Assembly: GCA_030765585.1 (NCBI GenBank) | Contig: JAVCCJ010000113.1 | Location: forward strand, 1 to 50,837 | Reading direction: 5' to 3' | DNA: 50,837 nucleotides | DNA from: Candidatus Zapsychrus exili | GTDB taxonomy: Bacteria > Omnitrophota > Gorgyraeia > Zapsychrales > Zapsychraceae | In this document: one piece after another, positions 7,608 to 50,837 of the stretch | Position numbering within the stretch: position 1 is the first letter of the stretch | How the letters are laid out: every line of letters starts with the position of its first letter | Translations under genes and position numbers: made by a program | Notes under the pieces: model-generated | Told to the model about the DNA's origin: nothing | Databases searched by the model: none | What the model saw: only the letters and a program-made list of their open reading frames with translations

Positions 7608-7619
7608 TTTAACACCCTC

Positions 7620-9044: not shown

Positions 9045-9139
9045 CCTTTTGTTAATTTATAATTTGCTAATTTCTTTAAATATACAGCAATACAATATTG
9101 TGTTTTTCTATATTTTAGTCTCTGCCATTTCCGATACAT

Positions 9140-9402
9140 TTATCTACCACTATTTCCACCACATTTATCTACCAACTTACAACTTGTAGAACAATATGGG
9201 GTTCGTGTTGCATAAGTGCAAACCGATACATTGCGAAACCCATCATCACATTTTTCACCAAAAGACCTATCTATGTTTTCATCCCCGCAAAAAGGACCTG
9301 TAACTGTTATTGGTTCACAAGAACTTGAACAATAGTCGCAAAATTTGTTATATCCTGTTGTGCAATCATCTTCATCATTACAATCTTAATCTTTATCACA
9401 AT
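9140..9402 (-). pseudogene. Frameshifted distal remnant of cysteine-rich paralog 3
   Basis: Immediately downstream of the paralog 3 stop, the minus strand in another frame encodes more family sequence: VIDCDKD, a TAA at 9386-9388, then DCNDEDDC, FCDYCSSSCEP, GPFCGDEN and GEKCDDG, ending at a TAA at 9140-9142. The spacing of Cys residues matches the repeats of the paralogs. A frameshift near 9410-9420 plus the TAA therefore cut paralog 3 short. The terminal module of paralogs 1 and 2 was not found. Confidence 0.7.
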
Positions 9403-11052: not shown

Positions 11053-11114
11053 AACTACTTTTTAGCTTGCAACTAACCTTTCTCTTAACCTTATAATGTA
11101 ACTACTTTAAGAAA

Positions 11115-11702
11115 TCATTTTACAGTTGTGCATCGTCCGCTAAAACATTTCCCCCTCATTCTTCCTATCTTACAAGCGCTTCCATCTGATCTATCTAAAT
11201 TTCTACAATAAGATTCCGTAGTTCCAGGATAGACGCACATATCTATTGTGCATGGATTTGTATCTGCACATTCAGAATCACGGCTACATTTAATTGTACC
11301 TGTACCTCTGCTAGTTGTACTACAATCTTTGGAACAATTACTGCTAGTCTCAATCGGAATATTACAAGTGCCATCCCCACAAGAACCCCCAAAAACTTCT
11401 ATTTCAATACAACTTGTTGAACAATATGTGCACTCATCTCCATAAGGAGGATGACAATGGATTCCATTATACCTATCGTTATCACACTCTTCAGGAACTT
11501 GAACTATTCCATCTCCACAAACGGTAGCAGCACCACAATCATCGGGACAATTATAGCTAAACTCGTGCTCATCAGCATCGCAAATACCATCGCCACAATA
11601 AGGACCGACAATCTCTATTCTTGTGCAAGTATCTGAACAATAAGTACAAGTTACACCATAACTAGCATGACAAGGTATTCCATTGCGAGTGCCAGAATCG
11701 CA
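11115..11702 (-). pseudogene. Distal part of cysteine-rich paralog 4 after an in-frame TAA
   Basis: The frame of paralog 4 stays completely open after the TAA at 11703-11705 for ~195 more codons, ending at a TGA at 11115-11117. It encodes further CxYCSDTC, YCGDGICD, CGDGIVQVPEEC and CGDGTCN repeats and finally the family terminal module (TTESYC to the last Cys). The stop stands where the repeat consensus has EEC (GAA to TAA). Full length would be about 717 residues. There is no start codon with a good ribosome site here, so it is probably expressed only by read-through or not at all. Confidence 0.75.
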
Positions 11703-33517: not shown

Positions 33518-34090
33518 TTAAGGAGTAGAACTAGTGTTGGACATACCATGACCTATTATTAATTTAACAATAGTCATTGAGACATTTACTTCATCAGGAA
33601 ACCCTCGTTTTTCAGTCATATTAAACTTTACCACCTTAAGCATTTCTGATGTAGAGTTAATAGCATGCATAAAAGATATTATATTCTCCAAGTTGCCAGA
33701 ACAATCTAACTCTGCATAATATTCAATATATCTTTTTCGAGCCTCTGTTTTTGTGGGGTTGCTTCTTGCTAAATTTATATTTAAATTTGTTGCAAGCTTT
33801 TCAACAGTACTTAAAAAATCTGCACTAATTACATCTTCGTCTTCTATTTCATCTATAAAATAACTATCAAACACTTCATTTTCTTTTATAATCTTATCCT
33901 TATATTGCAAGAATCTAGCATCTCTCTGAATTACAGATTTTTGAGTCTCAACTTCTTTTTTAATATCATTCAGCTTGTCTAATACTGGACCCAAAAAAAG
34001 CCTATCTAATAAAGCTAAAGAAACTAATACAATAGCTATATAAAATATTTTCTTTTCTTTTTCTGAAAGTTTAGCAATGTATTGCTTCAA
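33518..34090 (-). CDS. PilO/GspM-like inner-membrane platform protein
   Basis: 190 aa. A single membrane segment (~residues 15-32) is followed by a coiled coil (~35-75) and a ferredoxin-like periplasmic domain, which is the PilO/GspM layout. The gene starts 3 bases after the PilM-PilN-like gene. In type II secretion and type IV pili this protein pairs with GspL/PilN and links the cytoplasmic ATPase ring to the periplasm. Sequence identity is weak; the call leans on topology and position. Confidence 0.65.
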   Translation of the reverse strand: MKQYIAKLSEKEKKIFYIAIVLVSLALLDRLFLGPVLDKLNDIKKEVETQKSVIQRDARFLQYKDKIIKENEVFDSYFIDEIEDEDVISADFLSTVEKLATNLNINLARSNPTKTEARKRYIEYYAELDCSGNLENIISFMHAINSTSEMLKVVKFNMTEKRGFPDEVNVSMTIVKLIIGHGMSNTSSTP

Positions 34091-34093
34091 CTA

Positions 34094-35575
34094 TTATTCC
34101 TCCTGTATTAAAGGCTTTTCAACCTCTTCTTCAAATGCAGACTCCAGCTTTAACTCAATCTCAAAAGCATGTGTATCTTTATTTCTATCTTTTTTAGCTG
34201 TCATAGATTTAATATCTGCGCTCTTAAACAACTCTGATTCTTTTAATGTTGTTCCTAAATTAAAAACTAACGATGCTATATCTGATATTCCCTGAATATT
34301 AATAACTCCATCTTCATTCATAGAAATATTCGTTAAATACATTTCATTTGGAACGTTTAGATAGAGCTCATTAACAACATCTAAACCTATCATTCTACTT
34401 GCAAGATAGCTTTTAATTATTCTAGTTTCTAAAGATCTTTGCTCTAGAGCCATAACTTCTTGACGATTTGCACGAAGTTCATCTTTAATCTTATTTAAAA
34501 ATGAATTCTGAAAATAAATCTTAAGCCCAAGAACACATGCTATTAAAATTAAAACAACAAACCCTAGCGTAGCAGTTTTAAAAGCTTCCTTACCTTGCTC
34601 TTCTATTGTTTTCTGAAATTGAACCTCTTCAGGCATCAAATCTATATTTACTTCTTCTGCCTCAACAGAAGAAACAACCAAGTCCAAGAATGAATTATTT
34701 CCAAAATCTACTCCTAAACGCTTTAAGGCCCCTTGCGTTGCCTTAATATTGTCAACATATGATATAGCCTCAACTTCCCAATTTAATTTCTCTTTCAACA
34801 TATCTTTTAGTCCATCAAATTCATCTTGCATATTTGCCAAAATATATTTTGATGGTACTTGCTCTATATCTTCGTTCTTATAAGACTCTAATGTCTTTTT
34901 TAATTCTTCTATTAATTTGCTTTCATAATCTAAGTCTTCTTTTAACAATTGATTTTTTCCTACTGGTATACTTCGCGACGCTATTGCTAAACCACGAAAA
35001 GCAATAACAAAATTTGTTGAGTCTGCTCCAACATCAATAATACCAACAGATAAAGATTTATTTTCTAAATCAAGAGCTTTAGAATAAAAAGACGCTATTG
35101 CCTCTGAAGGAAAAATAACTTTATTTATTTTAAGACCAACTTTATCGAGAACCTCTAGCTGCTTCTTAAGAATATTCTTATTAACAATGATAAGCAAAAC
35201 TTTTGTATAATTAGTTTTGTATACTCCTATGTTAATGAAATCGACTTCTATCTCTTCTCTAGAAAAAGGTGTATGTCTACCAGCTTGAAGATTTACAATA
35301 GATTTAATTTCTTCAGGCTCGATAGAAGGAATTTCAATATTTTTAGTAGTCACCACACTAGGATCTATAACACAATATACGTTGGCTGATTTCACAGGAA
35401 ATCCTTTTAAAGTTACATTGATGATTTTAGGCAAACTTACTTCATCAACACCTTTAATATCCTGTGCTATTGCATTTATAATTTTTGCAGAAGAACCTAT
35501 ACCTTTAACGTGAGACACTTTAAGCGTATCTTCGCTTAAAGTTATAGATATACTGTCATTGCTTTTTCTTACCAT
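34094..35575 (-). CDS. PilM-PilN fusion (GspL-like) platform protein
   Basis: 493 aa. Residues ~1-310 are an actin-like PilM/GspL cytoplasmic domain: PSIEPEEIKSIVNLQAG, then IIDVGADSTNFVI (phosphate-loop-like) and SIPVGKNQL. A linker with DLMPEE (the PilN N-terminal NLLP-like peptide) leads to one membrane segment (~345-365), a short coiled coil and a PilN-type periplasmic ferredoxin-like fold. It thus merges PilM and PilN, as GspL does. It would recruit the GspE ATPase to the membrane. Start at ATG 35575; the PilO-like gene follows directly. Confidence 0.78.
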   Translation of the reverse strand: MVRKSNDSISITLSEDTLKVSHVKGIGSSAKIINAIAQDIKGVDEVSLPKIINVTLKGFPVKSANVYCVIDPSVVTTKNIEIPSIEPEEIKSIVNLQAGRHTPFSREEIEVDFINIGVYKTNYTKVLLIIVNKNILKKQLEVLDKVGLKINKVIFPSEAIASFYSKALDLENKSLSVGIIDVGADSTNFVIAFRGLAIASRSIPVGKNQLLKEDLDYESKLIEELKKTLESYKNEDIEQVPSKYILANMQDEFDGLKDMLKEKLNWEVEAISYVDNIKATQGALKRLGVDFGNNSFLDLVVSSVEAEEVNIDLMPEEVQFQKTIEEQGKEAFKTATLGFVVLILIACVLGLKIYFQNSFLNKIKDELRANRQEVMALEQRSLETRIIKSYLASRMIGLDVVNELYLNVPNEMYLTNISMNEDGVINIQGISDIASLVFNLGTTLKESELFKSADIKSMTAKKDRNKDTHAFEIELKLESAFEEEVEKPLIQEE

Positions 35576-35666
35576 CGCTAAACGCTACTCCTTTTAATAA
35601 TATAATTTTACAATAATATTATTATAATTTAAATTATTAATTTATATAAATAAAAATTCATTTTTT

Positions 35667-36704
35667 TTACCGCTCCCTATAATACTCAAACTTATTTTCT
35701 TTTACGCTATAAACACACTTTGCAAGTAAATTTTGCTTACCGCTGCCTAATTCTCCCTTACTTTTTATAAGATAAAAATAAGAATTCGTTGTTAGAAGCC
35801 CTGCAGTATTAACTGAATCAATTTGTTTTGCCTCTGATTCTTTAAGCTCAACAAATTGAGTAATTTCACTAGCTATATCATGTGTTTTATAAAAAACATA
35901 ATCATCTTCCGTCGCCTCTTGCCTGTCCAAACCACGCCTTACAATAAATATCTTATTTACAACGCTTTCGTCAATGCCAAGTGACAACAAAACTTGATGA
36001 GAAGCTGTATTTATATTTACCGCCCCATCACCATATATGGTAATAAACGGTTCTATTTTATCAAATATCTCCTTGGTCATTCCCTGTACTAACAATAACT
36101 CATCAATTATCTCAAACTCAGCATTCTTAATTCTATAAGGATACTTTAAACTATCATAATAATAATCACTATAAAATCCTTCCAATTGCGTAGACCCAAA
36201 TTCTCTCCAAGAAATAATTGCCTCGGTCAAATCAATAGAATCTTGTTTATTTAATAAGTTAAGACTATATACAAGTCTTCTTAATATATCTCTTGATACT
36301 GTATTTATATTTATTTTGCTTTCCTCGTCAACAATTCCATATCGTATATATGAATTTAGAAAAGTATCATCGAAATAAGAATACTCAACATTACAAAGCC
36401 CATCATTTAATTTTATATCTTTAAACTTTTCAGGATTATTATGTCTATAGAATTTACTATAAGAAGAATAAATTTGCTTACTTCTCATTAAATCTTGTCT
36501 TAATATTGCAACAGCTTTTTTTATTCCAGCTTCTGCTGTAAAACGCAACTTACTTCTATCTTCTATTCTGTGCAACAAAGTAACTCTTTGTCGCACTTTA
36601 AGTCCTATATGTACCGCAAATATAGTCAAAAAGGACAACGTCCATAATGCGACTATTAAAACCGATCCAATTTTATTATTTTTATAAACAATATGTTTCT
36701 TCAT
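35667..36704 (-). CDS. gspK: GspK-type minor pseudopilin
   Basis: 345 aa, the expected size for GspK. The N-terminal hydrophobic segment KIGSVLIVALWTLSFL is the GspK type, lacking the usual Glu at +5. Further on are VDEESKININTVSRDIL and VNINTASHQVLLSLGID, the helix-hairpin-helix-like repeats characteristic of the family. GspK caps the pseudopilus tip with GspI and GspJ. The gene starts 3 bases after the TGA stop of GspJ and is in the same frame, which shows that TGA is a stop here. Confidence 0.85.
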   Translation of the reverse strand: MKKHIVYKNNKIGSVLIVALWTLSFLTIFAVHIGLKVRQRVTLLHRIEDRSKLRFTAEAGIKKAVAILRQDLMRSKQIYSSYSKFYRHNNPEKFKDIKLNDGLCNVEYSYFDDTFLNSYIRYGIVDEESKININTVSRDILRRLVYSLNLLNKQDSIDLTEAIISWREFGSTQLEGFYSDYYYDSLKYPYRIKNAEFEIIDELLLVQGMTKEIFDKIEPFITIYGDGAVNINTASHQVLLSLGIDESVVNKIFIVRRGLDRQEATEDDYVFYKTHDIASEITQFVELKESEAKQIDSVNTAGLLTTNSYFYLIKSKGELGSGKQNLLAKCVYSVKENKFEYYRER

Positions 36705-36707
36705 ATA

Positions 36708-37310
36708 TCAATAACCAACAATAATATTAATAAACTTATTAGCTTTCCTTTTCCCTCTTTTATCTGTAAATTCAACCGTCACCTCTAAACCTGAAGGAAA
36801 GGTTTCCAATGTTTTATCACTTTCAATTTCTCCACTATCTGTAGAATAAAAATATTTAAATCCTAAGCTATCAACAGGACCTACCAAAAGTCTGGCTTTA
36901 AAAAACTTATCACTTTCTGCTTTGCTATAATTTGCTTCTCTTTTATAAATACCTCCATCGAGTGAGTCAAAATAATATTCAACTTTGCCAATCTGATTCA
37001 CATATCCTTCTTTTTTCTGTGTGCTTCTAGGATCTGCTGGTGTATATACTATGGTGGGAAAAGAAAATTTATTATCAGTTCCTTCAAAACTTATTTTTGA
37101 ATAATAAAAAGTATTTCTTAAATCACTATTTATTTTATCAAAAAATATAACAATATCTTCTTCAATTAACGCATAATTGCTTCTGTCCCAAACTCGTAAA
37201 CCATTTGCTAGCGCATTATACAAAGCTATGCTAAGAACAGAAAACAAAGAAATAACTATAAGAACCTCAATGAAAGTCATAGCATTCTTTTTAAATATTT
37301 TATTATTCAT
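36708..37310 (-). CDS. gspJ: GspJ-type minor pseudopilin
   Basis: 200 aa. The prepilin leader ends NAM-TFIEVLIV with Ala before the cleavage point and Glu at +5 (counting from Met). The body has the GspJ pattern (ALANGLRVWDRS, DLRNTFYYS, VEYYFDS, GLEVTVEFTDKRG). It forms the pseudopilus tip with GspI and GspK. Its stop is TGA, one of few in the window. It is preceded by GspI (9-base gap). Confidence 0.78.
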   Translation of the reverse strand: MNNKIFKKNAMTFIEVLIVISLFSVLSIALYNALANGLRVWDRSNYALIEEDIVIFFDKINSDLRNTFYYSKISFEGTDNKFSFPTIVYTPADPRSTQKKEGYVNQIGKVEYYFDSLDGGIYKREANYSKAESDKFFKARLLVGPVDSLGFKYFYSTDSGEIESDKTLETFPSGLEVTVEFTDKRGKRKANKFINIIVGY

Positions 37311-37319
37311 TTTATTTAC

Positions 37320-37730
37320 TTATTTATTATCAAGATCTCTAAATTCAGAAATATACTTAGAGCGAGATATGTTTAATTCTTTATTATTTTCTTTCCAAGA
37401 CAACTTTAAATCTAATTTAAAAACTTCTACAAAATCTTCTATTTCGCCTATGCTAACATATTCCTTAAATCCCACCTTTTTCCCGCCAACATCCACCTCT
37501 CTTACCTGCTGTTCATCAAATGGCAAGGCTCCATAAACTTTCAAAAAACGATCTATTCTTTCTATACGATTATCTAAAAGCGTTGTTGCATATAATCTAT
37601 TGGTAAGATAATTCATCCTATCGAGGGAAATGAGAAAAGACTTAAAAATCATAACTATGCCAACAGAAAAAATCACCAAAGTGACCATAACTTCTATAAA
37701 AGTAAAACCATTTTCTCTATTGAATCGCAC
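37320..37730 (-). CDS. gspI: GspI-type minor pseudopilin
   Basis: About 136 aa from a GTG at 37730. The longer frame (to an ATG at 37856) would read through the end of GspG with non-prepilin sequence and is unlikely. With the GTG start, the class III leader VRFNRENG-FTFIEVMVTL is short and proper. An ATA codon three codons upstream (37739) has better spacing to an AGAG ribosome site and cannot be excluded as a rare start. The body fits the GspI family of ~125-140 aa. It belongs to the pseudopilus tip complex. Confidence 0.7.
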   Translation of the reverse strand: MRFNRENGFTFIEVMVTLVIFSVGIVMIFKSFLISLDRMNYLTNRLYATTLLDNRIERIDRFLKVYGALPFDEQQVREVDVGGKKVGFKEYVSIGEIEDFVEVFKLDLKLSWKENNKELNISRSKYISEFRDLDNK

Positions 37731-37752
37731 GTTTTTTATGGAAGATCTCTTT

Positions 37753-38175
37753 TTACCAATTAATAATATCATCACTACTTGAACTTGTGTCTTTACCTTC
37801 AGATGAAAGATCATAATCAGGATTATGCTTTCCCGGAGAAACATAAACATAATCATTTCTCCACGGATCAGCAGGATCTTTCTCTAAGTAAGGACCATTC
37901 CAATTAGAAGGAATTGGGCTAGTTGAGGATTTTATTTTTAAAGCCATCAAACCTTGACTAGTCGTAGGAAACTGTCCATTGTCTAGCTCATAGAGCTTAA
38001 GGCCTGTTGCAATATTTGCTTCAATATCCGATTTTGCAACAGATACTTTTGCTTGTTCAGAACGACCAACCAGCCTTGGTATAACCATGGCAGACAGAGC
38101 TGCTATAATTGTTACAACAAGCATAATTTCTACTAACGTAAATCCACTTTTATATTTACTAATATTTTTAAACAT
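37753..38175 (-). CDS. gspG: Major pseudopilin GspG
   Basis: 140 aa. The prepilin leader is short and ends KSG-FTLVEIMLV with Glu at +5. The family signature follows: the IPRL segment, QGLMAL, GPYLEKDPADPWRNDYVY and the PGKHNPDYDLSSEGKD calcium-binding end. It is the main subunit of the type II secretion pseudopilus and needs a prepilin peptidase, which is not in the window. It lies 165 bases downstream of GspF's upstream neighbour arrangement, i.e. between gspF and gspI. Confidence 0.92.
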   Translation of the reverse strand: MFKNISKYKSGFTLVEIMLVVTIIAALSAMVIPRLVGRSEQAKVSVAKSDIEANIATGLKLYELDNGQFPTTSQGLMALKIKSSTSPIPSNWNGPYLEKDPADPWRNDYVYVSPGKHNPDYDLSSEGKDTSSSSDDIINW

Positions 38176-38340
38176 AATATATCCTCCCTATAAAAAATAT
38201 TTACTTTTTATACTGTTATATATATCTATATTTATCATACTATACAAATTAATTTTTTATATATCTTAACTATTTTTTTTAAAATCATATATATCGTAAA
38301 ATATACTAATATATTCACTATAAAGAATTAATATACTTAC

Positions 38341-39549
38341 CTAGCGAGCCAAAACATCTATCTGAAATATTGGAAGCAACATTGCAAAAACAATAAAACC
38401 TACAATCAAGCCAATAGCAAGTATCATTATTGGTTCCAGCAAGGTTGTTATCACTTTTATCTTCTCTTCTGTCTCTTGTTCATAAGAATCAGCTATATCG
38501 TTTAATACACTATTTAAATTTCCAGATTCTTCTCCAACAGATATAAGATGTCCCATCATAACTGGAATTTGTTCACACTTTCTTATTCCATCACCAAATG
38601 ATCCACCTGCGATTAAATCATCCTTACACTTAACAAAACTTAGCTTTATAACTTCATTACTCATAATTGGAATAGAAATTCTAATTGCATTAACTATAGA
38701 TATTCCACTATTAAGCAATAAAACTACTGTTCTACAAAAACATGCTAATTCATTTCTTAAAACAATTTCTCCAAATATAGGAATGCGTAATAAAATATTG
38801 CTTATTGCAAGATGTCCTTTTTGAGATTTCGCCCACCTAATAATTCCAAAAACAATAAGAAGAATAGCTAGAATAATTACTATTGCATACTGATTAAATA
38901 AATAACTTATTTTTAACAATATTATTGTTGGCAACGGTAAAGTATCTGCTATGCTTTCAAACAATCCCGCCATCCTAGGAAGAACAAAAGTTAAAATAAA
39001 ATAAACAGATACCAAACCCATAAAAAACATAAAAAGAGGATATGCTAAAGCTGATTTAACCTTGGCTGTTATCTGCTGCTGCTGATATTGATACTCTGAT
39101 ATTTTTTCAATTACTTCTTCTAAATTATTGCTTTCTTCCCCCACAGTAACCATAGTAATATATAATTGAGAAAATAAGCTTGGATATACCATTAAACATT
39201 CAGAAAAAGATTTTCCGTTTCTTATTCCCAAGCCAATCGCTACAATTATTCTTCTAAAAGTAATATTTTCAGTCTGATCTTCAATAATAGACAATGCCTT
39301 TAAAATAGAAACACCAGACTTAAGGAGATTTCTCAATTGTTTATTGAAAATATAAAGTTCTTTTCTTTTAATCTTTTTTATTTTATTTAAATCTATGGAA
39401 AGGTCTTTTGAAGATTGTGACTTAACAAAAATTGGCAATAAACCTAACTCGTTTATCAATTCTATCGCTTCATCCTGAGTATTGGCCGAAATAGTTCCTG
39501 TTACTGTCTTTATCGTTCCTTTTTTTGCTTTATATATAAACGTAGTCAT
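38341..39549 (-). CDS. gspF: GspF/PilC inner-membrane platform protein
   Basis: 402 aa, the usual length. It has an N-terminal polar domain, then two tandem T2SSF domains with membrane segments near residues ~170-190, ~215-235 and ~370-395. Typical strings are FNKQLRNLLKSGVSILKAL, GKSFSECL, FCRTVVLLLNSGISIVNAI, and EEKIKVITTLLEPIMILAIGLIVG. It connects the GspE ATPase ring with the pseudopilus. It follows gspE by 10 bases. Confidence 0.92.
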   Translation of the reverse strand: MTTFIYKAKKGTIKTVTGTISANTQDEAIELINELGLLPIFVKSQSSKDLSIDLNKIKKIKRKELYIFNKQLRNLLKSGVSILKALSIIEDQTENITFRRIIVAIGLGIRNGKSFSECLMVYPSLFSQLYITMVTVGEESNNLEEVIEKISEYQYQQQQITAKVKSALAYPLFMFFMGLVSVYFILTFVLPRMAGLFESIADTLPLPTIILLKISYLFNQYAIVIILAILLIVFGIIRWAKSQKGHLAISNILLRIPIFGEIVLRNELACFCRTVVLLLNSGISIVNAIRISIPIMSNEVIKLSFVKCKDDLIAGGSFGDGIRKCEQIPVMMGHLISVGEESGNLNSVLNDIADSYEQETEEKIKVITTLLEPIMILAIGLIVGFIVFAMLLPIFQIDVLAR

Positions 39550-39559
39550 ATTATATCTA

Positions 39560-41779
39560 CTAGATAACTTGTCGCTTCATCTGAAGCTTTGTTTTTTCCT
39601 TAAGTTTTTTCTCAACAAATTTATTTATTAAAGCCCTATCTGCGCCTGATATATCTAAATAATAAGAGACAATTGTATAGATATTCTTAAGACTATCTTC
39701 TTCTAGACGACAAATCTTGGCTAAACAGCCTATACTTTTCTGACCCTCTTCTAACTGTATCTTAAGCTCAATAAGAGATCCGGGTTTAATCATTACTTTT
39801 GAAATAAATTTCAAACCACCCGCACTTATATCTTCTGCTATTGTAGGATATTCAATGCCATCTGACACAAGAGAATTCGGATCACTAGAACTTCTGTTTA
39901 CTAAACTATACCTAATCTTTACCTGTGCACTTGCTCTTGGATAAATTCTACCTTTATGAGAATTGTCATTTTTAACGTCAGAACTTTCCGTGTTTTTTTC
40001 AAAACTCTCTTCTATATCAGAATCCATTTTATCATCTGACATAGAAGCACCTATGCAAGAGCTATCATCTTTTACTGTAAAATTTATAACCTCATCAGGA
40101 GTTGTTAGCCCATTATAAACGGCTTTCCATCCATTTTGACGAAGAGTAACCAGGCCTTCTTTTATTGCTATTTGTTTTATATAATCAGAGCGTGGTTTTT
40201 CTAAAATAGCTGTCCTAATCGCATCATTAAGAGTAAGTATTTCATAAATGGCCATCCTTCCATAAAATCCAGTACCATTACAATAATCACACCCTTTTCC
40301 CTGATAAACTTTTACATCATCTATACTTGCTAATCCCAAAGAGCTTGCCATTTCTTCTTTTACTTTTACTTGTATATTCTTTGTTTCTTCTTTACATTTT
40401 GGACAAATAATACGAATTAATCTTTGCGCTACAAAAGCCTCAACACTTGACGCAACCAAATAAGGCTCTACTCCCATATCAATTAATCGAGTTATACCAC
40501 TTGCAGCATCGTTTGTATGTAAAGTAGAAAAAACAAGATGTCCTGTTAAGGCTGTTCTAATAGCAATTTCTGCAGTCTCAACATCGCGAACCTCACCCAC
40601 CATCAGAATGTCAGGGTCATGTCGCAACACACTTCTTAAGCCCTCTGAAAAGCCAAAGCCTACTTTAGGATTAACCTGAACTTGTGTAACCCCATCCATC
40701 TCATATTCTACCGGGTCTTCTATAGTAATAATCTTTCTTTCATGTGTATTAATTTCATTTAAACAAGCATAAAGAGTTGTAGTTTTTCCAGATCCCGTTG
40801 GACCTGTCATAAAAATAATTCCATGAGGCTTACTTATTAAATCTTTAAATTTACTTATACTCTTAGTATTAAAACCTAACTTTTCAAGACTAAACAACAT
40901 AACTTTTGTAGGTAATATTCTAATAACCATACCTTCTCCTCTTGGAGTTGGCATAGTAGAAATTCTTAAATCAAGATGCTGATCTTTTGTCTTAACAACC
41001 GCACTTCCATCTTGAGGCAAACGCTTTTCAGTAATACTTAAATTTGCCATAATTTTAATTCTAGATAAAATAGGATGCAAAAAATGCTTAACTTCTTTGG
41101 GTAGATTTGCATCAACCAAAACTCCATCTACTCTATATCTAAACCTTACTCTGTCGCGATATGGTTCGATATGTATATCAGTCGCACGTTTTTGATATGC
41201 TTCAAGTATAATTTGATTAACAAGTTGAGCTACAGTAGGATCTTCTGATTTTAATTCAATATCTTCAACCCATTTACCACTATCAGAAGAAGAAACTGTT
41301 TCTTTTACAGGATCTTTTGACATAATCTTGTCAATTGTATCTGATGCAAGTCCATAATGTTTCTTAATAACATCTAGAATACGTCCGTCTTCAACAAGAA
41401 CTATATTAATATCAAATCCGAGATGCATTCTTATTTCGTCTTGAATTTTAATATCTAAAGGAAATTCAACTGCTATAGTTAAAACATCATCTTTTATAAA
41501 TATTGGCATAAATTTATAATGCCATACAAACTTGATTGGTATAGTATTAATCAAGGATTGCTCGACAGAAACATCTTGCAAATCAAGAACATCTAAATTC
41601 TCGCTCTGAGATAAAGATATTAATAATTGTTTTTTTGTAATAATTTCGTTGGTAAGAAGATATTCTTTAAATGAAATGTTCTTTGCTTGGCTTTCAACTA
41701 AATATTTTTTTATATCTATTTCAGAAAGAACATTGTTTCTAACTAAAGCTTCTTTGAGGATCCTATTTATCTGATTCAT
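39560..41779 (-). CDS. gspE: GspE/PilB-type assembly ATPase with C-terminal PilZ domain
   Basis: 739 aa, ~170 longer than normal. Residues ~1-150 are the N-terminal MshEN/T2SSE-N domain. The ATPase core has the Walker A GPTGSGKTTTLY (~325), the Asp-box EDPVE, Walker B-like DILMVGEVRD, and a four-cysteine zinc site (CPKC...CDYC, ~460-500). After ~residue 580 a linker leads to a PilZ domain with the c-di-GMP motif RxxxR (RIYPR) and DxSxxG (DISAGG), ~610-735. It powers pseudopilus or pilus assembly; cyclic-di-GMP could act on it directly. It starts 2 bases after the F-type beta subunit gene, tying the two modules together. Confidence 0.92.
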   Translation of the reverse strand: MNQINRILKEALVRNNVLSEIDIKKYLVESQAKNISFKEYLLTNEIITKKQLLISLSQSENLDVLDLQDVSVEQSLINTIPIKFVWHYKFMPIFIKDDVLTIAVEFPLDIKIQDEIRMHLGFDINIVLVEDGRILDVIKKHYGLASDTIDKIMSKDPVKETVSSSDSGKWVEDIELKSEDPTVAQLVNQIILEAYQKRATDIHIEPYRDRVRFRYRVDGVLVDANLPKEVKHFLHPILSRIKIMANLSITEKRLPQDGSAVVKTKDQHLDLRISTMPTPRGEGMVIRILPTKVMLFSLEKLGFNTKSISKFKDLISKPHGIIFMTGPTGSGKTTTLYACLNEINTHERKIITIEDPVEYEMDGVTQVQVNPKVGFGFSEGLRSVLRHDPDILMVGEVRDVETAEIAIRTALTGHLVFSTLHTNDAASGITRLIDMGVEPYLVASSVEAFVAQRLIRIICPKCKEETKNIQVKVKEEMASSLGLASIDDVKVYQGKGCDYCNGTGFYGRMAIYEILTLNDAIRTAILEKPRSDYIKQIAIKEGLVTLRQNGWKAVYNGLTTPDEVINFTVKDDSSCIGASMSDDKMDSDIEESFEKNTESSDVKNDNSHKGRIYPRASAQVKIRYSLVNRSSSDPNSLVSDGIEYPTIAEDISAGGLKFISKVMIKPGSLIELKIQLEEGQKSIGCLAKICRLEEDSLKNIYTIVSYYLDISGADRALINKFVEKKLKEKTKLQMKRQVI

Positions 41780-41781
41780 AT

Positions 41782-43287
<1,506 letters not shown>

Positions 43288-43334: not shown

Positions 43335-44186
43335 TTACTTCATGGACATCATTCTTGCAGAAAATGTCTCTCTTAAACTTTTATCAATATCACTTTTCTT
43401 AACTTTTCTATACTTTATAGCTGTCTTAGCTTGTTCTTTTTTCATTTTATCGACACTATCGTCGAGAAATGCTGCTAAAGCTGCAGCGGACGCAATATTG
43501 CTGTCAATAAATATCTCATGCAACCTAACTGTTACCCATAAATTGGCCAAATAACCAATAATATCTTTCGAATCAGATTCTTCTATAACATTCTCAAATG
43601 CATCAACAAACTCTGTTTGTTTTGAAACAAGATCTTCGCATGGCAATAAAGGGATAACTCTAGCTTTTTGTGAATCAAAAGATTTAGACCAACAATACAC
43701 AACAACAACCTTTCCAATCTCACCTTTCATTATTCTATCTACCAAATAATCTTTTATCTCAACTGCCATATTATACATTCCCTTAGATTCCATACCAGAG
43801 AACATCTTTAAATCAGGAGTATATGCTTTCAATCTATCAATAGCTTTATTTCCAACAGCTATAAATTCAAAATCTTCATACCTATCTTTTACTTTAACTG
43901 CGGCTCTTAATATCTTGTTATTAAACTTTCCTAAAAAACTTCCTTCAATAGTTATGACCAGTATAGCGACCTTCTTGCAATCATTAGACATCAAAAAATG
44001 TTTTGTCCTGGTCAAACTTATCATTCTAAAAAATTCTACAAACGTCTCTCCAAAACGTCTGAATTTTTCCTTATCTGATAATAACATAAAAAACTTATTA
44101 TCCGCAATATCCTTTAAAACCTGGATGAGATAAACCATTTCAATTGCGTCTCGTAATTCAAACTTAACTTTATTTGCTTTTCCCAT
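43335..44186 (-). CDS. Divergent F-type ATPase gamma subunit-like
   Basis: 283 aa, normal gamma length. The N- and C-terminal regions are long helices suited to the rotor coiled coil, and the middle has the Rossmann-like core with VAILVITIEGSFLGKFNNKIL aligned to the canonical segment VxxxDRGLCGGxN; the Cys and Gly residues are replaced. The usual N-terminal MKMV-type motif is not recognisable. The C-terminal helix (IASAAALAAFLDDS) matches the family's final helix. Position between the b-delta fusion and beta supports the call. It is less conserved than alpha and beta, suggesting an altered partner or rotation role. Confidence 0.75.
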   Translation of the reverse strand: MGKANKVKFELRDAIEMVYLIQVLKDIADNKFFMLLSDKEKFRRFGETFVEFFRMISLTRTKHFLMSNDCKKVAILVITIEGSFLGKFNNKILRAAVKVKDRYEDFEFIAVGNKAIDRLKAYTPDLKMFSGMESKGMYNMAVEIKDYLVDRIMKGEIGKVVVVYCWSKSFDSQKARVIPLLPCEDLVSKQTEFVDAFENVIEESDSKDIIGYLANLWVTVRLHEIFIDSNIASAAALAAFLDDSVDKMKKEQAKTAIKYRKVKKSDIDKSLRETFSARMMSMK

Positions 44187-44193
44187 TTTAGAA

Positions 44194-44943
44194 TTAGCTT
44201 TCTTTCATCTCTATTTGCTCTTGCATAACAATCCCTCTTTCTCTTATTAAGTTTTGAACACTTCCATCTAGAGCCATGCTTCCAAATCTTAATATAAGAC
44301 CTCCACCAATAGATTCGTCAGTACTTGTATTAACAGACACATCTCTTCCTAATTTATCTTTTACTATAGAAAGTATTTGAGACTTTACAAAATCATTGAC
44401 TGGGTTAAAACCGACTATATCTATTGTGTTTATATCTGCGCTTATTCTGCTCATATCAATGTCTTTTAACTTTTCAAGGAATTCTTTAATAAGCACATCA
44501 TCTAAGGGTCCCTTAGACTCTTCGCTTAAAACATCATTTAAAATTTCCATAGCATATTTTACAACTTTAATATCATTATCTTTTTCCATATCAAAACGTA
44601 TTTTTTCTTTAGAGCCTTGAGCTTTTGCAATAATATCTTCACCCTCTTCTCTTGCCTTGCCAACAATCTTATCTCTTTCCGCCCTAAACTCTTCTTCAAC
44701 TTCAGATCTCATTCTGTTCGTAAGCTCACTCGCTTCTTTTTGTTTCTCTGCTAATTCTTCACTAGCTTCTTTTATTTTCTTACTTAATTCTTCCTGCTGA
44801 GCTGCCATCCTATTATTCTCTTCGTTTAATTTCTGGACAGCTCCTTCAGTACTCGCAACAAGAGATCTGTGCAAAAAGAATATAATTCCACCAGCAACAA
44901 TAAATGTTAAAACCAAAAATTTTATTATTAACCCCATTATCAT
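44194..44943 (-). CDS. F-type ATPase b subunit fused to the delta C-terminal domain
   Basis: 249 aa. One N-terminal membrane segment (~4-24), then a long charged coiled coil (~30-140) as in b subunits, then at ~180-245 a domain matching only the C-terminal half of delta: ILSIVKDKLGRDV and IGGGLILRFGSMALDGSV. The six-helix N-terminal domain of delta, which normally grips alpha, is missing. The product would be a peripheral stalk tied to the membrane. It starts 26 bases after the second c-type gene and ends 7 bases before gamma. Confidence 0.85.
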   Translation of the reverse strand: MIMGLIIKFLVLTFIVAGGIIFFLHRSLVASTEGAVQKLNEENNRMAAQQEELSKKIKEASEELAEKQKEASELTNRMRSEVEEEFRAERDKIVGKAREEGEDIIAKAQGSKEKIRFDMEKDNDIKVVKYAMEILNDVLSEESKGPLDDVLIKEFLEKLKDIDMSRISADINTIDIVGFNPVNDFVKSQILSIVKDKLGRDVSVNTSTDESIGGGLILRFGSMALDGSVQNLIRERGIVMQEQIEMKES

Positions 44944-44969: not shown

Positions 44970-45197
44970 CTAAAAAAATATATAAAATACAGTCAAAGAC
45001 AAAAATGTTATTATCTCGACGACAACCAACTGAATTAAAATACCCATCTGTATCGTCGGTGTCTTAGAAGGGTACCGCCCCATAGATTCTATAGTTCTTT
45101 TTCCTAAAGCAGCAATTATAATACAAGGTATGATTATTATTACACTAAACATTGCTGAAAATATAAAACTTTCAGACCATAGATTAAATTCAACCAT
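44970..45197 (-). CDS. Second, divergent F-type c subunit-like protein
   Basis: 75 aa, two membrane helices. The polar loop GRYPSK keeps Arg and Pro at the F1-facing loop, and the second helix has a buried Glu (LVVVEIITF) at the ion-binding place. The Gly-rich helix-1 motif is almost gone (IIIPCIIIAALGKRT). It has an extra polar start (MVEFNLWSES). It lies 10 bases after the first c gene. With two different c proteins the ring may be mixed, or one may act as a fixed membrane partner. Confidence 0.8.
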   Translation of the reverse strand: MVEFNLWSESFIFSAMFSVIIIIPCIIIAALGKRTIESMGRYPSKTPTIQMGILIQLVVVEIITFLSLTVFYIFF

Positions 45198-45207
45198 ATA
45201 TTATTCC

Positions 45208-45426
45208 CTATTTTGAAAATAATTGAAATATAATTAAAATAGCGATTATAGCTATAGCCTCAACAAATATAAGCATAACAATCATACCCATAAATATTTT
45301 AGAAGCAGCCGAAGGGTTTCTTGCTAAAGCCTTTATAACCGCATTACCTAAAACAGCTATAACAATGGAAGGCCCCATAACAGCCACCATCATAACTCCA
45401 ACAATGATCATTGTTTCAGCTAACAT
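45208..45426 (-). CDS. F-type c subunit-like protein
   Basis: 72 aa hairpin of two membrane helices. The loop ALARNPSAASK is canonical, and helix 2 carries the ion-binding Glu in IFVEAIAII. The helix-1 Gly ladder is reduced (GPSIVIAVLG), and the Gln and Ser/Thr ligands of Na-type rings are absent (Ile and Ala), so a proton-type site is more likely. It lies 20 bases after epsilon and is followed at 10 bases by a second c-like gene. Confidence 0.88.
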   Translation of the reverse strand: MLAETMIIVGVMMVAVMGPSIVIAVLGNAVIKALARNPSAASKIFMGMIVMLIFVEAIAIIAILIIFQLFSK

Positions 45427-45446: not shown

Positions 45447-45722
45447 TTATTTTTTACTTTTTGTTGCTCGCAAATCTTCTTCTACCATTATAATGCATTC
45501 ATTTGCGTAAAAACGAACAATACCACCATCTATAGGAATTTTTTCTTCCCAATTTATAATAATATTACCTTTTTTTAAAACTCCTAAAAGAGGATAATGA
45601 TATGCCAACAATTCATATTCCCCTTTATCTCCTGTCAAAAAAATACTTTTTATTTCATTCTGATAAATAAGATTATTTGGGCTTATTATAACGCATTTAA
45701 AATTTCCTAAATTTTTCATCAA
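45447..45722 (-). CDS. Short F-type epsilon subunit-like protein
   Basis: 91 aa. It matches only the N-terminal beta-sandwich of epsilon (FKCVIISPNNLIYQNEIKSI, GDKGEYELLAYHYPLLGVL, IDGGIVRF). The C-terminal two-helix inhibitory arm found in ~130-aa bacterial epsilon is missing, so ATP hydrolysis would lack this brake. It lies 31 bases after alpha and 20 before the first c gene. Confidence 0.8.
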   Translation of the reverse strand: MMKNLGNFKCVIISPNNLIYQNEIKSIFLTGDKGEYELLAYHYPLLGVLKKGNIIINWEEKIPIDGGIVRFYANECIIMVEEDLRATKSKK

Positions 45723-45753: not shown

Positions 45754-47391
45754 TTACTCATCATCGTCATCTAATTCTATCTCGCCAAAGTCCTTTTGTT
45801 TATTTATTTTAGATGTTACATCGTCTAATACATCTTTTCCTATATTCGCCACAATCCCCTCTCCTACATCGTCCTCTGATGAAGCTTCACCATTTTCCTC
45901 AGCTTCTTTGGCAGCATCTATTTTATCCTGCTCTGCTTTTATATTGCCAACATATTCTTCTAAAATACTTACAAGTCCTTTATCTATTTCATCATCCATT
46001 TTTCTGCGCTCTCTAAGCAATGCTACTAGTTCTGAATTCTTTCCTTTTGCAAAATCATAAACTTCATCTAACATGGTTTGCACTCTAGCCATGTTAGGCA
46101 TCTGCTGTATATATTTTCTCTTAAAACTAAAAAGAATCAAAACCAAAGCTTCCATAATAACAGGCTGATTTTTATCCTGTCTTAACAATAATGTTAATAT
46201 TTCTCCGCTTTTTAATTGTTCTAAAACTTCATCTGACAATTGTCTTCCAACCCTTAACTTTGTTGCTTTTTGAAGCTCTCTAAATTGAAGATATTCTAAA
46301 CGTAAAAATCTACTTAGTTCTTTAATAATAGGCCATTGAACTTTTGCACCTACTCGAGAAACTGAAAGCCCTAAGTCAAGTGCTGGCTTTTGCCCTTCAC
46401 CGAAAAGAGTAGAATCTAACATTATCTGCCCATCTGTCATAGAAATAAGATTAGATGGAACAAACGCTGTTAAATCTCCTTCCAAAATCTCTACTGCTGG
46501 CAAAAATGTCATTGAGCCAGAACCATGCGCTTCATCTAAATAACATGCTCTTTCAATCATTTTTGAATGAAGATAAAATATATCGCCAGGATATGAGTCT
46601 CGACCAGGCGCACGACCTAAGAGCAAAGAAATTTCACGATAACACCATGCATGTTTAGTAAAGTCATCAAATCCTATGAAAACATGTTTACCTTGACTTC
46701 TAAAATGTTCACCTAATGAGCAAGCAACATATGGAGATAAGTATTGTTGTCCTGGAAGGCTAGAAGAAGGTGCTGCCACAATAATAGAATAATCAAAAGC
46801 ATTGTTCTCTTGAAAAAGCTGAACAACACGAGCCAACTGAGATCTTGCCTTTCCAATAGCACAATAGATACAAATAACACCTGTATGTTTTTGATTTAAA
46901 ATAGTATCTGTTATGATAGTTGTCTTACCAGTCACTTTGTTACCTAAAATTAACTGGCGCTGACCCAGTCCAATAGGAATCATTGAATCTAGTACCTTAA
47001 TCCCAGTTTCTAAAGTCAAACACAATGGCTGTCGTTCTAAAATAGCAGGAGCAGATGGAAATATAGGATTATAAGCGCTTGACTCAATATCTCCTAAGCC
47101 ATCTATAGGCTCACACAAAGAATTTACTATACGACCAACAAATGCATTTCCTACAGGAATATTAAAGGGCTCTAAAGAAGCCCTAACCTCATCACCTGTT
47201 TTAATTCTTTCAGACTCTTTTATAAGAAGAACATGTGTTTCTTCCTCGGTAAAACCTAAAACCATACCTTGAGTTCCAAACCCAAAGTTAATAATCTGAC
47301 CATTAATACAACTCTTAAGGCCACTTACAACAACTATGCAGCCGCGAATACTTTTGACTCGACCAACTTCTGTATAGCGTAACTCTGCCAC
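45754..47391 (-). CDS. F-type ATPase alpha subunit-like, N-terminal helix missing, acidic tail
   Basis: 545 aa. It begins directly in the beta-barrel (MAELRYTEVGRV), so the ~22 N-terminal residues that bind delta in other bacteria are absent. P-loop GNKVTGKT (~150; canonical Gln is Val), SIIVAAPSSS, the FDDFTKHAWCYRE strand, PGRDSYPGDIFYLHS, and the Arg finger in LGLSVSRVG are present. The C-terminal ~60 residues are an extra Glu/Asp-rich tail ending in DDDDE. It would form the alpha3-beta3 head. It lies 14 bases after the two-domain membrane protein gene. Catalytic motifs are intact enough for ATP binding. Confidence 0.9.
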   Translation of the reverse strand: MAELRYTEVGRVKSIRGCIVVVSGLKSCINGQIINFGFGTQGMVLGFTEEETHVLLIKESERIKTGDEVRASLEPFNIPVGNAFVGRIVNSLCEPIDGLGDIESSAYNPIFPSAPAILERQPLCLTLETGIKVLDSMIPIGLGQRQLILGNKVTGKTTIITDTILNQKHTGVICIYCAIGKARSQLARVVQLFQENNAFDYSIIVAAPSSSLPGQQYLSPYVACSLGEHFRSQGKHVFIGFDDFTKHAWCYREISLLLGRAPGRDSYPGDIFYLHSKMIERACYLDEAHGSGSMTFLPAVEILEGDLTAFVPSNLISMTDGQIMLDSTLFGEGQKPALDLGLSVSRVGAKVQWPIIKELSRFLRLEYLQFRELQKATKLRVGRQLSDEVLEQLKSGEILTLLLRQDKNQPVIMEALVLILFSFKRKYIQQMPNMARVQTMLDEVYDFAKGKNSELVALLRERRKMDDEIDKGLVSILEEYVGNIKAEQDKIDAAKEAEENGEASSEDDVGEGIVANIGKDVLDDVTSKINKQKDFGEIELDDDDE

Positions 47392-47405: not shown

Positions 47406-48737
47406 CTATGTTGTTTTCTCTTTTTCGTCTTCAGGTTCTTCTAATTCTTCTTCTTTTAAATTCTTAGATCTTTTTCCCCAAACAACAAAATTAATTATTG
47501 TAAATATAGCAACAAATGCCATAATGCCATAAATGATTTTCCAAACAGTAGACATTAACGGCTTCTCTCCAAACATTGCAGCAGCTATTGCAGCAATAGT
47601 GTTAAGAAGGGTTATTTTTTGCAATACATTCTTTAACGAACTTCTTTCAAAATATTCACGAACAGCTCTCAATAAATTTTCTAAAACTACAACATCTTTT
47701 TTTACAGTATCAAAAAGTTTCTTATTAGTACGATAGGCACCTATATGCTCTTCTATTTTTTTTTCCTGCGTCTGAGATTCTTCTATTTTCTTCACATTTT
47801 CTTTGATACTAGTTACCAAAAAATCTGCACTATTTGCATATTCAGTTGTCTTAAGTAATTTATAAGCATGTCCAGTTCTAAACTTTATATCATCTATATC
47901 TGTCTGAAGAATACTCCATACATCAACAACCTCTATCTTGTATCTCTTAGTTTCGCTAGGAAGAAGATCTTCTTCTCTTGAAAGATAAGATTTTCCCTTT
48001 CCTGCATCATAACGAACACTAAAGCCTTCTGCATTAACAATATGTTCTGGCTTAACCTCTGCGGGAAGATAATGCTTCCTATCAGCTGTATTAATAGTAT
48101 CTTTGGTTGGATTGTTAATATCTATGATGAAATTTAATACATTAGCTTCTTGGAAATCTGGAGGCTTAGATCGCCAATAATCGATAGAAAAAGCATCACT
48201 TCTAATATTTTCTATCTCTTGAGAATATATACTATATCTACCAATTCTTTCTTCTACGTTCTCGCTATTATCTTCTTGCTGCTCTATGATACTATCGAGT
48301 CTTTGAAGTAAACTTTCTTTTCTTATTTTTCCAATTTCATAATATTCAGTATCTGCTATTAATCCTAAGCTCTCATTTATTTGCTTCTTTATTCCATCAA
48401 TCTCGCCTGTGTCTACTTGCCATGTATCTTTGAGCCGAACTTTAAAAGTTTTAGTTTCTTTAGCACTTAAACTTACTTCGCCTTGAACCATATATCTTTC
48501 TTCATTTACATCATAATCTAATTTTAGACCAGATGTATCAAGAACATTTTCGGATTTAAGTCCAATCGGTAAATAATATTTTATATTTGTTTCTTTTAGC
48601 TTTTCTGTTCCATTAACAGTAAGAATATTAATAGTTACATCTGCACAGGCATATTTAACAAAACCAAAAGCAAAAATTATACACAATAAAAGAACAATAA
48701 TTTTTTTAAAATATTTTTCCAAGTTTTCCTGCATCAT
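47406..48737 (-). CDS. Two-domain exported membrane protein with acidic cytoplasmic tail, linked to the ATPase cluster
   Basis: 443 aa, no known family recognised. The N-terminal signal or anchor (~12-32) is followed by two copies of one domain: residues ~35-135 (KYYLPIGLKSENVLDTSG, LSAKETKTFKV) and ~205-305 (KHYLPAEVKPEHIVNAEG, LLPSETKRYKI). Each ends in a helix with a DI/EIDxIK pattern, and a helical coiled stretch follows each. A membrane segment at ~400-425 leads to an acidic Glu/Lys tail inside the cell. The start overlaps the stop of the repeat protein gene (TAATG), implying translational coupling. Position suggests an outer partner of the ATPase, perhaps replacing the missing membrane stator; this is inference. 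Confidence 0.6.
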   Translation of the reverse strand: MMQENLEKYFKKIIVLLLCIIFAFGFVKYACADVTINILTVNGTEKLKETNIKYYLPIGLKSENVLDTSGLKLDYDVNEERYMVQGEVSLSAKETKTFKVRLKDTWQVDTGEIDGIKKQINESLGLIADTEYYEIGKIRKESLLQRLDSIIEQQEDNSENVEERIGRYSIYSQEIENIRSDAFSIDYWRSKPPDFQEANVLNFIIDINNPTKDTINTADRKHYLPAEVKPEHIVNAEGFSVRYDAGKGKSYLSREEDLLPSETKRYKIEVVDVWSILQTDIDDIKFRTGHAYKLLKTTEYANSADFLVTSIKENVKKIEESQTQEKKIEEHIGAYRTNKKLFDTVKKDVVVLENLLRAVREYFERSSLKNVLQKITLLNTIAAIAAAMFGEKPLMSTVWKIIYGIMAFVAIFTIINFVVWGKRSKNLKEEELEEPEDEKEKTT

Positions 48738-50837
48738 TAGTCACTCTCAAACCAAGTCTTTATTATAATTTCACTTTCAGTTACAGATTCTTTTATCGCT
48801 GAAATCTTAGCATCAATTTCCTCTAGTTTTTCATTAACCTTCTCAGAGTCTTGTCTTTCCTCTTCCACTAACTTCTTAACCTTAAGACCTAGACCTAACG
48901 AATCTGCGCTTTGATTTACCAATTCTCCTAATATATCCATCATCTCAACAGCTGTTGATTGAGAATCGCTGCTCATATCTGATATTTCATATACAACCGC
49001 TTCTATTTCACTTAAAGCTCCCTCTAGATCATCAACTTTTGTATAGAGATTTGGTGTTTGTCCGTCTATACCTAAATCTGTCTTTATTTCCTGAATGATG
49101 CTCAACGCAGAATCTGCACTTTGTTTGCCTTTGTTAGCATTTTCATTGATATTATTTAAACGCCCAAATACTGAGTCTGCTGTTTCTGCATCGCCAGCAA
49201 CACCTGTTAAAGCTTCTAGATTGTTTAAATCACCAAATATTGTTGAGTCAGCAGAAGTATCGGCTTCATCGCCTAATACGCTCTCTATAGTTGTTACCTT
49301 TGTTAATATAGTTCTTATATCAGTACCACCAACAGCGTCTTTAACATCAGCGATTTTTCCAAACAATGTACTTGACGCAGAAGTATCAGATGATGTACCC
49401 ACTAAACTATTGATAGTGTTTACAACGCTTAATATAGTAGTGACGTTTCCAACAAGAGCCTGTGCATTATCAGCAAAATAATTTAATCCATCCCAGTTGA
49501 TATTCTTACTTGTCATATCAGCTAGATCACTCCAATTGATATTAGAAGTAGTTGATGCTGCCATATCTTCCCAGTTCATTCCAGTTCCTGACATATAAGA
49601 TATATCAGCCCAATTTATTCCAGATGCTGACATTGAAGCTATATCGTCCCAATTAATTCCGGTTTCACTAAGAACTGTAATCTCATCCCAGTTTATGCCA
49701 GCTGCTGACAATTCTCCAAAATTATACCAATTAGCTCCAGCGCTGCTTAACACACCTATATCATCCCAGTTAACACCTGTTTCGCTCATCACATCTATAT
49801 CGTCCCAATTAATTCCAGCATTAGATAGAGATCCTATATTGTCCCAATTGATTCCAGCGTCGCTCATATCATTAATGCCTTCCCAATTAACGCCAGCATC
49901 ACTTAGATCTTTTATTTCTACCCAATTTACACCTGCTGCAGATAGTTCTGCGAAATTATACCAATTTGCTCCAGCACCACTTAACACTCCTATATCGTCC
50001 CAGTTAATTCCTGTTTCTGTTAAAACTTCTATATCTTCCCAATTGATTCCAGCGCCTGATAGTTCTCCAATGTTTGTCCAATTGATTCCAGCGTCGCTTA
50101 AAGAATTAATATCTTCCCAATTAATTCCTGTGTCTGACATAATGTCGATATCGGACCAATTAATTCCTGCATCAGACATATCTCCAATACTTGTCCAATT
50201 AATACCACTACTTGACATGTTTCCTATATTAGACCAATTAATGCCTGTATCTGACAATACATCAAAGTCAGACCAATTAACTCCTGCATCTGAAAGAACA
50301 TCTAAATCAGACCAATTAATTCCGGCGTCACTCATTACATCAAAATCGGACCAGTTAATACCAGTTTCAGTTAGCGCTCTTATATCATCCCAATTGACAC
50401 CTGCGTCTGAAAGTACATTTATATCTTCCCAATTAACACCAGCTACTGATAATCTTCCAATATCGTCCCAATTAATACCTGTATCTGAAAGAACATCTAT
50501 ATCAGACCAATTAATTCCTGCAGAAGACATGTCTCCAATGCTTGTCCAGTTGATACCATTACTTGACATATTTCCTATATTAGACCAATTAATGCCTGTA
50601 TCTGACAATACATCAAAGTCAGACCAATTAATACCAGTTTCACTTAACGCTCTTATATCATCCCAATTAACACCTGCGTCTGAAAGAACATTGATGTCAT
50701 CCCAATTAACACCTGTATCTGAAAGAACATCTATATCAGACCAATTAATACCAGTTTCACTTAACGCTCTTATATCATCCCAATTAACACCTGCGTCTGA
50801 AAGTAGATTTATATCTTGCCAATTAACACCAGCTTCG
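48737..50837 (-). CDS. Asn-Trp 13-residue repeat protein (5' truncated by window edge)
   Basis: Open from the window edge (codon phase at 50836); any internal TTG such as 50608 is not the true start. The first ~455 visible residues are at least 35 perfect-length 13-residue repeats, consensus [ST]-x-x-G-[IV]-N-W-x-[DN]-[IF]-x-x-[LM]. The last ~247 residues are Ser/Asp-rich with three units of a STxFGxL type and long heptad-like helices, probably a coiled-coil stalk. There is no enzyme motif. The N-terminus, and therefore any signal peptide, is outside the window. The gene overlaps the next by one base (TAATG). It may be a fibre or elongated scaffold of the ATPase-linked machine; function is unknown. 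Confidence 0.7.
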   Translation of the reverse strand, partial: EAGVNWQDINLLSDAGVNWDDIRALSETGINWSDIDVLSDTGVNWDDINVLSDAGVNWDDIRALSETGINWSDFDVLSDTGINWSNIGNMSSNGINWTSIGDMSSAGINWSDIDVLSDTGINWDDIGRLSVAGVNWEDINVLSDAGVNWDDIRALTETGINWSDFDVMSDAGINWSDLDVLSDAGVNWSDFDVLSDTGINWSNIGNMSSSGINWTSIGDMSDAGINWSDIDIMSDTGINWEDINSLSDAGINWTNIGELSGAGINWEDIEVLTETGINWDDIGVLSGAGANWYNFAELSAAGVNWVEIKDLSDAGVNWEGINDMSDAGINWDNIGSLSNAGINWDDIDVMSETGVNWDDIGVLSSAGANWYNFGELSAAGINWDEITVLSETGINWDDIASMSASGINWADISYMSGTGMNWEDMAASTTSNINWSDLADMTSKNINWDGLNYFADNAQALVGNVTTILSVVNTINSLVGTSSDTSASSTLFGKIADVKDAVGGTDIRTILTKVTTIESVLGDEADTSADSTIFGDLNNLEALTGVAGDAETADSVFGRLNNINENANKGKQSADSALSIIQEIKTDLGIDGQTPNLYTKVDDLEGALSEIEAVVYEISDMSSDSQSTAVEMMDILGELVNQSADSLGLGLKVKKLVEEERQDSEKVNEKLEEIDAKISAIKESVTESEIIIKTWFESD
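49475..50837 (-). repeat. Array of 39-bp tandem repeats encoding the NW motif
   Basis: 35 visible copies (the first partial) without any length change, all in frame. DNA identity between some blocks is high: copies 1-4 and 10-13 after 50608 match at a nine-copy offset, and a block near 49740 matches one near 49970 at a six-copy offset. This pattern indicates growth by duplication of multi-copy blocks. Confidence 0.9.

Follow-up and report, generated by a model that had tools for sequence, protein, structure and literature searches.

A 13-residue Asn-Trp repeat giant of Omnitrophota is a candidate exported stalk in a locus with a rotary ATPase and pilus-like genes

The 50,837-nucleotide stretch of DNA analysed here (the window) ends within a gene for a giant repeat protein, which is followed directly by the gene for a membrane protein, P443. 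The combined evidence from gene order and gene fusion suggests that the giant docks by its C-terminal tail on P443, beside a rotary ATPase and a pilus-like machine. The best-supported part of this reading is the architecture, that is, an exported giant, its inferred C-terminal docking on an inner-membrane adaptor, and its place beside the ATPase and pilus-like genes. That the giant is a stalk docked by its tail on P443 seems to us rather probable. A preliminary description of the same DNA had singled out the repeat protein without noticing the surrounding locus, the partner of the giant or its tail.

On the reverse strand of the window, the giant ORF (48737-50836, 699 aa) is open at its 5' end. 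The gene is truncated within its repeats because the contig ends at 50,837, and the 35 NW motifs counted here are therefore a lower bound. All 34 spacings between them are exactly 13 residues, and position 4 of the repeat is Gly in 32 of 34 units, in agreement with the preliminary description, which had reported a constant 13-residue NW repeat with a near-invariant Gly. It had assigned the interval 48737-50837 to this protein; the repeats are real, but the array spans 49475-50836 (-), its 5' end cut by the contig end, and the remainder is a non-repeat C-terminal region of 245 aa (48740-49474, -), helical according to AF2 and the sequence. Self-identity of the window repeats at a lag of 13 was 0.556, as compared to 0.090 +/- 0.013 for 1000 shuffles (maximum 0.138). 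The consensus unit, [ST]-x-[AST]-G-[IV]-N-W-x-D-[IL]-x-x-[LM], was derived from 4,392 repeats at 33 loci, some few of which may belong to one gene; N6 and W7 reach 100% by construction, the units having been located by NW.

Block duplication at the DNA level, also claimed earlier, was found in the window array as units of 117 and 234 bp with matches of mostly 75-89%. Between the repeats of the window gene, pS was 0.66 and pN 0.33, and the values for four giant genes were 0.66-0.77 for pS and 0.34-0.49 for pN/pS. This high synonymous divergence suggests that the units are mostly old and held by selection, rather than freshly copied. A preferred duplication block of three repeats, hinted at in the window by offsets of 3, 6 and 9, was rejected since other loci disagree. 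Near-identical repeat pairs favour even offsets in several giants (L056, L072, L051 and others; 66% even overall), and other giants have such pairs at offsets of 3, 25 or 28. A possible N-glycosylation sequon, NW[ST], occurs in 38% of the window units, and an STT3/PglB-type oligosaccharyltransferase (PF02516, E 1e-21) is encoded at 28070-30580 (+), approximately 18 kb from the giant gene. The sequon was rejected as the sense of the NW motif: the share of NW[ST] runs from 3% to 75% between proteins, so that it is not the conserved feature.

The one complete copy of an NW giant was found in relative G045. The protein has 10,962 aa, with a Sec-type signal (..AASAFAQFSGG), a leader of approximately 330 residues ahead of the first NW, 798 NW motifs and an end of 237 aa measured from the final NW. 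A Sec-type signal is likewise present in those relatives in which the N-terminus of the giant is complete. Over approximately 10,400 residues, 792 of the 797 NW spacings are 13, which confirms that NW is truly near-invariant. The NW giant was matched in 49 of 92 related genomes, weakly in two of the 49, and many of the other copies are cut off by the end of a contig, since assemblies break in the repeats. The length variation expected by the preliminary description is thus seen across species, the complete copy standing beside many shorter fragments cut by contig ends. A search of genome contigs with the single window protein returned no related loci, and a search with a P443 alignment returned 17, of which 16 were labelled Omnitrophota or Omnitrophica (including Aceula and Omnitrophus) and one 'bacterium' only. 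A taxonomy check placed Candidatus Aceula in the Omnitrophota. Phage records and viral contigs contained no match to the giant.

The repeat family, the giant's slot in the locus and the docking junction all appear new. Scans of Pfam, PHROGs and PDB sequences with the window protein gave no credible match and none above a curated cut-off, which is consistent with the earlier view that the family was unrecognised. Lysostaphin_N (PF25533), a 13-residue repeat region, was weakly matched by 36 of the 126 repeat segments compared (best E 3e-11) and not by the window member at E 0.1. The period of 13 is common to both, whereas Lysostaphin_N is not known to have an NW core, and the matches are therefore read as period-driven. 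RecG_dom3_C, 2-Hacid_dh, Pentapeptide_4 and other Pfam families likewise matched some repeat segments only, in a manner that looks driven by the period and not by the core. Profile matches to PDB entries (a flagellin, E 6e-4; the LDL receptor) were discarded since the NW core was absent or the match patchy. A tblastn match in Mesomycoplasma hyorhinis was discarded as well; it has 17.7% identity and lies between variable surface lipoprotein genes, over an opposite-strand 'hypothetical protein'.

A prediction of helices from capping signals was set down before the AF2 models were read. AF2 gave almost every repeat a helix and built no beta-solenoid, both in the 699-aa window protein (mean pLDDT 50) and in a 12-repeat segment with 126 in-register rows (mean pLDDT 46, pTM 0.20). 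The absence of a beta-solenoid matters because, for perfect repeats, AF2 is known to produce beta-solenoids that score confidently but are unrealistic (PMC11795689). The models give no confident tertiary fold for the repeats, most residues of which are below 50 in the 12-repeat segment, and a Foldseek search of the low-confidence 699-aa model against PDB folds returned nothing at E <= 0.001. The solenoid or stacked-turn fibre suggested earlier is thus not borne out by the models, but the coiled-coil-like end is, being modelled as helical with pLDDT mostly 63-86. Judging from the caps and the AF2 secondary structure, each 13-residue unit may form one short alpha-helix, with N6 as N-cap, D9 at N3, W7, I10 and L13 on a buried face, and a Schellman cap at G4-[IV]5. 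The length of the stalk would then be set by copy number.

An alternative that we consider improbable is that the repeats form an unstructured low-complexity tether, expanding by slippage and without a specific fold. Low AF2 confidence over most repeat residues despite 126 aligned rows is in line with this, as are the block duplications and the strongly acidic character of the window repeats (80 D/E as compared to 6 K/R in 455 residues). The low pLDDT is also compatible with disorder, which the preliminary description had named as an outcome that would speak against its own reading. However, NW is kept in essentially every unit of the complete giant, the hydrophobic residues and caps are position-specific, and the pN/pS values indicate purifying selection between repeats. 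The conserved W/I/L face and the caps argue against plain disorder.

P443 (47406-48737, -) has a signal peptide, two beta-domains related to each other with a coil after each, one C-terminal TM segment (approximately residues 397-419; 47481-47549, -, from hydropathy) and a charged cytoplasmic tail. In the window, the stop codon of the giant and the start of P443 overlap (TAATG), and the order giant, P443, alpha subunit was found in every one of the 36 genomes in which the 3' end is assembled. The NW giants for which P443 was not detected (G018, G034, G041, G061, G067) are all cut by a contig end on their 3' side. Downstream of P443 follow an F-type ATPase lacking the a-subunit and a GspE-M/type 4 pilus-like set, and the F-type alpha and beta genes are thus co-located with type 4 pilus/GspE-like genes in the window. 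This set includes a GspE/PilB-type ATPase with MshEN and PilZ domains (39560-41779, -; family match) and the genes for GspF, G, I, J, K, L (PilM-like) and M (33518-39549, -), which were named by reading translations and gene order and whose order is conserved in relatives.

The locus was followed piecewise in many relatives and end to end in G045, where the order is gspC, secretin, TPR protein, two FGE-sulfatase-domain proteins, giant, P443, alpha, epsilon, c, c, b-delta, gamma, beta, and GspE, F, G, I, J, K, L and M. The gap-free genome G160 has a complete locus with the same parts permuted; its giant is of the Ig type and lies with its P443-like partner approximately 35 kb from the ATPase, which counts against a linked machine. 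Wherever the region is assembled (G045/L042; contig C44/L108), two exported FGE-sulfatase-domain proteins stand directly before the NW giant. GldJ and GldK of gliding bacteria have the FGE-sulfatase fold too. Contig C44 of the window genome ends within an FGE-domain gene, the gene directly upstream of the giant in relatives, and is probably the other side of the gap.

Other parts of the window encode further exported proteins, all on the reverse strand. Four tandem cysteine-rich exported paralogues with repeats of the CGDGxCDxxENxxxCxxDC type lie at 5724-13271. Two large exported proteins (469-3594 and 21560-26956) have an N-terminal domain in common (..LPxPGTFITASPTYVPTFLKGMTIHPEDPF..), and the latter also has a PEP-utilising mobile domain. 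A single 695-aa protein on the same strand (13337-15424) fuses cNMP-binding, AAA/ParA-like and patatin phospholipase domains.

The partner relationship is suggested by homologues in which the two genes are one. In a scan of the phylum, P443-like sequence was found in 154 of 384 genomes, in many of them as the C-terminus of giant ORFs. Deeper lineages have an Ig-like giant in place of the NW giant, with a P443 beta-domain fused to its C-terminus, and such fused giants end in a C-terminal TM segment. The giants of L078-L081 have P443-like C-termini, and the same ATPase and GspE/F genes follow them directly; the giants of L080 and L079 read as Ig-like repeats, with a Kre9_KNH match in L080. All four of the fused giants with enough flanking sequence adjoin the upstream side of these genes. 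Fused Ig-type giants instead of the NW giant were also observed within the window's own family (L079 in G003 and L112 in G025), and G149, of a mainly Ig-type family, has an NW-type giant. Judged from the sequences, the giant slot is swapped between lineages.

The tails of split giants (..VVKTWFES, ..EEPVVQTWYEY) match the stretch right before the beta-domain in fused giants. In one pair, the fused form reads ..NEPVIQTWYEYGSIILKAIIINPS and the split giant ends in ..KEEPVVQTWYEYS, with the partner then starting as (SP)NIVVRAAVVNPS; in another, fused ..GGTDTPIVHVSYTSGSVILRVVAVNP corresponds to ..GGIDDPVVHVTYQ at the end of the split giant and then (SP)REPMTMRVVAVNP. The putative docking tail of the window giant, ..SEIIIKTWFESD, occupies 48740-48775 (-). 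A profile trained on fused forms only (23 junctions) separated 56 split tails from 450 control C-termini with an AUC of 0.97 (p 7e-31). Among 37 NW-type tails, which include one Ig-type giant with 7 chance NW, 31 scored above the 99th percentile of the controls. The tail is common to NW and non-NW giants, and one NW giant (G137, L072) is without the motif. On a tree of P443-like domains, made by a quick method and with the two-domain P443 entered by its second domain, the fused or split state changed at least 3-4 times, three changes being forced by strongly supported branches. Such repeated breaking and joining at one junction would be expected of a tail strand and a domain that make up a single structural unit, be it on one chain or on two. 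A donor-strand style docking, with the tail strand completing a beta-domain of the partner, would be a possible form of this unit; the observation that bears on it is gene fusion and fission at the same junction.

The ATPase operon, on the reverse strand, encodes an F1-like alpha subunit with an acidic C-terminal extension (45754-47391), an epsilon subunit with the beta-sandwich domain only (45447-45722), two c-like subunits (45208-45426 and 44970-45197), a b-delta fusion with an N-terminal TM segment and coil and an OSCP-like C-terminus (44194-44943), gamma (43335-44186) and an F1-like beta subunit (41782-43284). Of the two c-like subunits, the second is the more divergent. Beta has 500 aa, with the barrel domain starting from residue 45, and its P-loop (GGAGCGKT) and GERIREGN are intact, as in 12 of 13 loci; L058 ends before beta, and the search returned alpha there. 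The a-subunit is needed for normal ion coupling. No a-subunit (PF00119) was found in the window genome, which is 96% complete, or in eight other locus-bearing genomes (G001, G009, G017, G039, G044, G046, G047, G052), and other locus-bearing relatives that do have an a-subunit encode it on a contig other than that of the locus. A second ATP-synt_ab pair (582 and 446 aa), A/V-like by length, lies on contig C59 of the window genome. Taken together, the lack of an a-subunit and the second pair make it probable that the ATPase of the locus works as an ATP-driven device and is not the synthase of the cell. The c-like subunits, the first of which retains its membrane Glu in 12 of the 13 relatives, are unexpected in a complex without ion coupling.

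Our proposal is that the repeat protein is the exported stalk of a surface machine in the uncultured phylum Omnitrophota. As indicated by the fused homologues, the tail would contribute a beta-strand in trans to complete the first of the two P443 beta-domains (residues 34-109; 48411-48638, -; the proposed docking site), so that P443 would hold the stalk at the inner membrane, its repeats pointing outwards. If the machine resembles that of Mycoplasma mobile, the a-subunit-less ATPase might hydrolyse ATP to move or tension the stalk for attachment or surface motility, a force-driven step that we regard as possible but doubtful. Equally tentative is the extension to a rotary machine common to the phylum, in which an a-subunit-less ATPase with c-like subunits would drive interchangeable stalks (NW or Ig-like), each fixed through a C-terminal beta-strand in an adaptor of the inner membrane and extending outwards via a pilus-like secretin complex, as a two-membrane counterpart of the Mycoplasma leg with its length set by repeat number.

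Two other explanations of the locus were weighed against the docked stalk. The giant might be a type II-like substrate that is released or deposited as a coat, with the F1-like ATPase aiding secretion and P443 acting only as an assembly chaperone, which we consider unlikely. F1-related ATPases help type III export, and such a role would fit a locus that includes a secretin, GspC and GspE-M. A role in translocation has also been proposed for Mycoplasma ATPases (PMC3369863), and a coat for the Velamenicoccus giant (PMC10066038). Yet the C-terminal TM segment of the fused giants points to a membrane-anchored protein and not to released cargo, and the locus already has a secretion ATPase in GspE, whose family match is intact. 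Less likely still is a static anchored adhesin formed by the giant and P443, with the F-type ATPase co-located for regulation only or as a lone ion pump. The two c-like subunits and the membrane Glu would suit an ion pump, and giants with P443-like domains do occur at some distance from the ATPase, but the a-subunit is missing from the nine genomes named above, and the linkage is tight and repeated across the phylum.

Omnitrophota giants are among the largest predicted bacterial proteins and were until now without an assigned partner or place. A large class of them is here tied to a defined adaptor and a probably non-respiratory rotary ATPase, which makes their roles testable through tail-P443 binding, the position of the stalk and its movement by ATP hydrolysis. 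A C-terminal tail beside a P443-like gene offers a simple handle to find and classify giants, and the 13-residue NW unit is a new repeat whose clear sequence grammar suits it to structural work. The literature search, with preprints, most subscription papers and supplements outside its scope, found no description of the NW unit, an in-locus giant, P443 or the tail junction.

The closest known systems are found in the same phylum and in Mycoplasma. In the Omnitrophota ATPase/T4aP locus of Seymour 2023 (PMC10066038), as in the window, an F-type ATPase, non-respiratory in that account and probably so here, adjoins a type 4a pilus gene set. In the parts of that account considered here, such loci and giant ORFs are separate traits, the role of the giants is given as unknown, and there is no NW repeat, in-locus giant gene, P443 or tail junction, unlike in the window locus. 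The same source describes a Velamenicoccus giant of 39,678 aa, proposed to be at the cell surface; the NW giant differs from giants of this type in having one 13-residue unit and a defined partner gene.

Mycoplasma mobile (G1-ATPase, Gli521, Gli349), as far as the passages used from PMC11864180 and PMC3369863 go, likewise has an F1-like ATPase without a recognisable a-subunit, a part of proposed b-delta origin, as in the b-delta fusion of the window, and large surface proteins thought to be moved by the ATPase, to which the giant is likened by analogy. The alpha, beta, gamma and epsilon subunits of the Mycoplasma type-2 F1-like ATPase are all present in the window operon. In contrast, the Mycoplasma clusters, as covered in these passages, have no c-like subunit and no reported secretin or pilus genes, whereas the window operon has two c-like subunits and its relatives have both secretin and pilus genes. 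The N-terminal extension of 200-300 aa in beta of the type-2 enzyme is absent from the window beta. Based on the c-like subunits, the secretin and the lack of a long beta extension, the locus is not classed as a Mycoplasma gliding system. The analogy with the Mycoplasma leg draws on Seymour 2023 (PMC10066038), where alpha subunits of this kind group with the type-2/3 ATPases of Mycoplasma, and on the b-delta origin of GliD, a hypothesis given in Toyonaga 2025 (PMC11864180).
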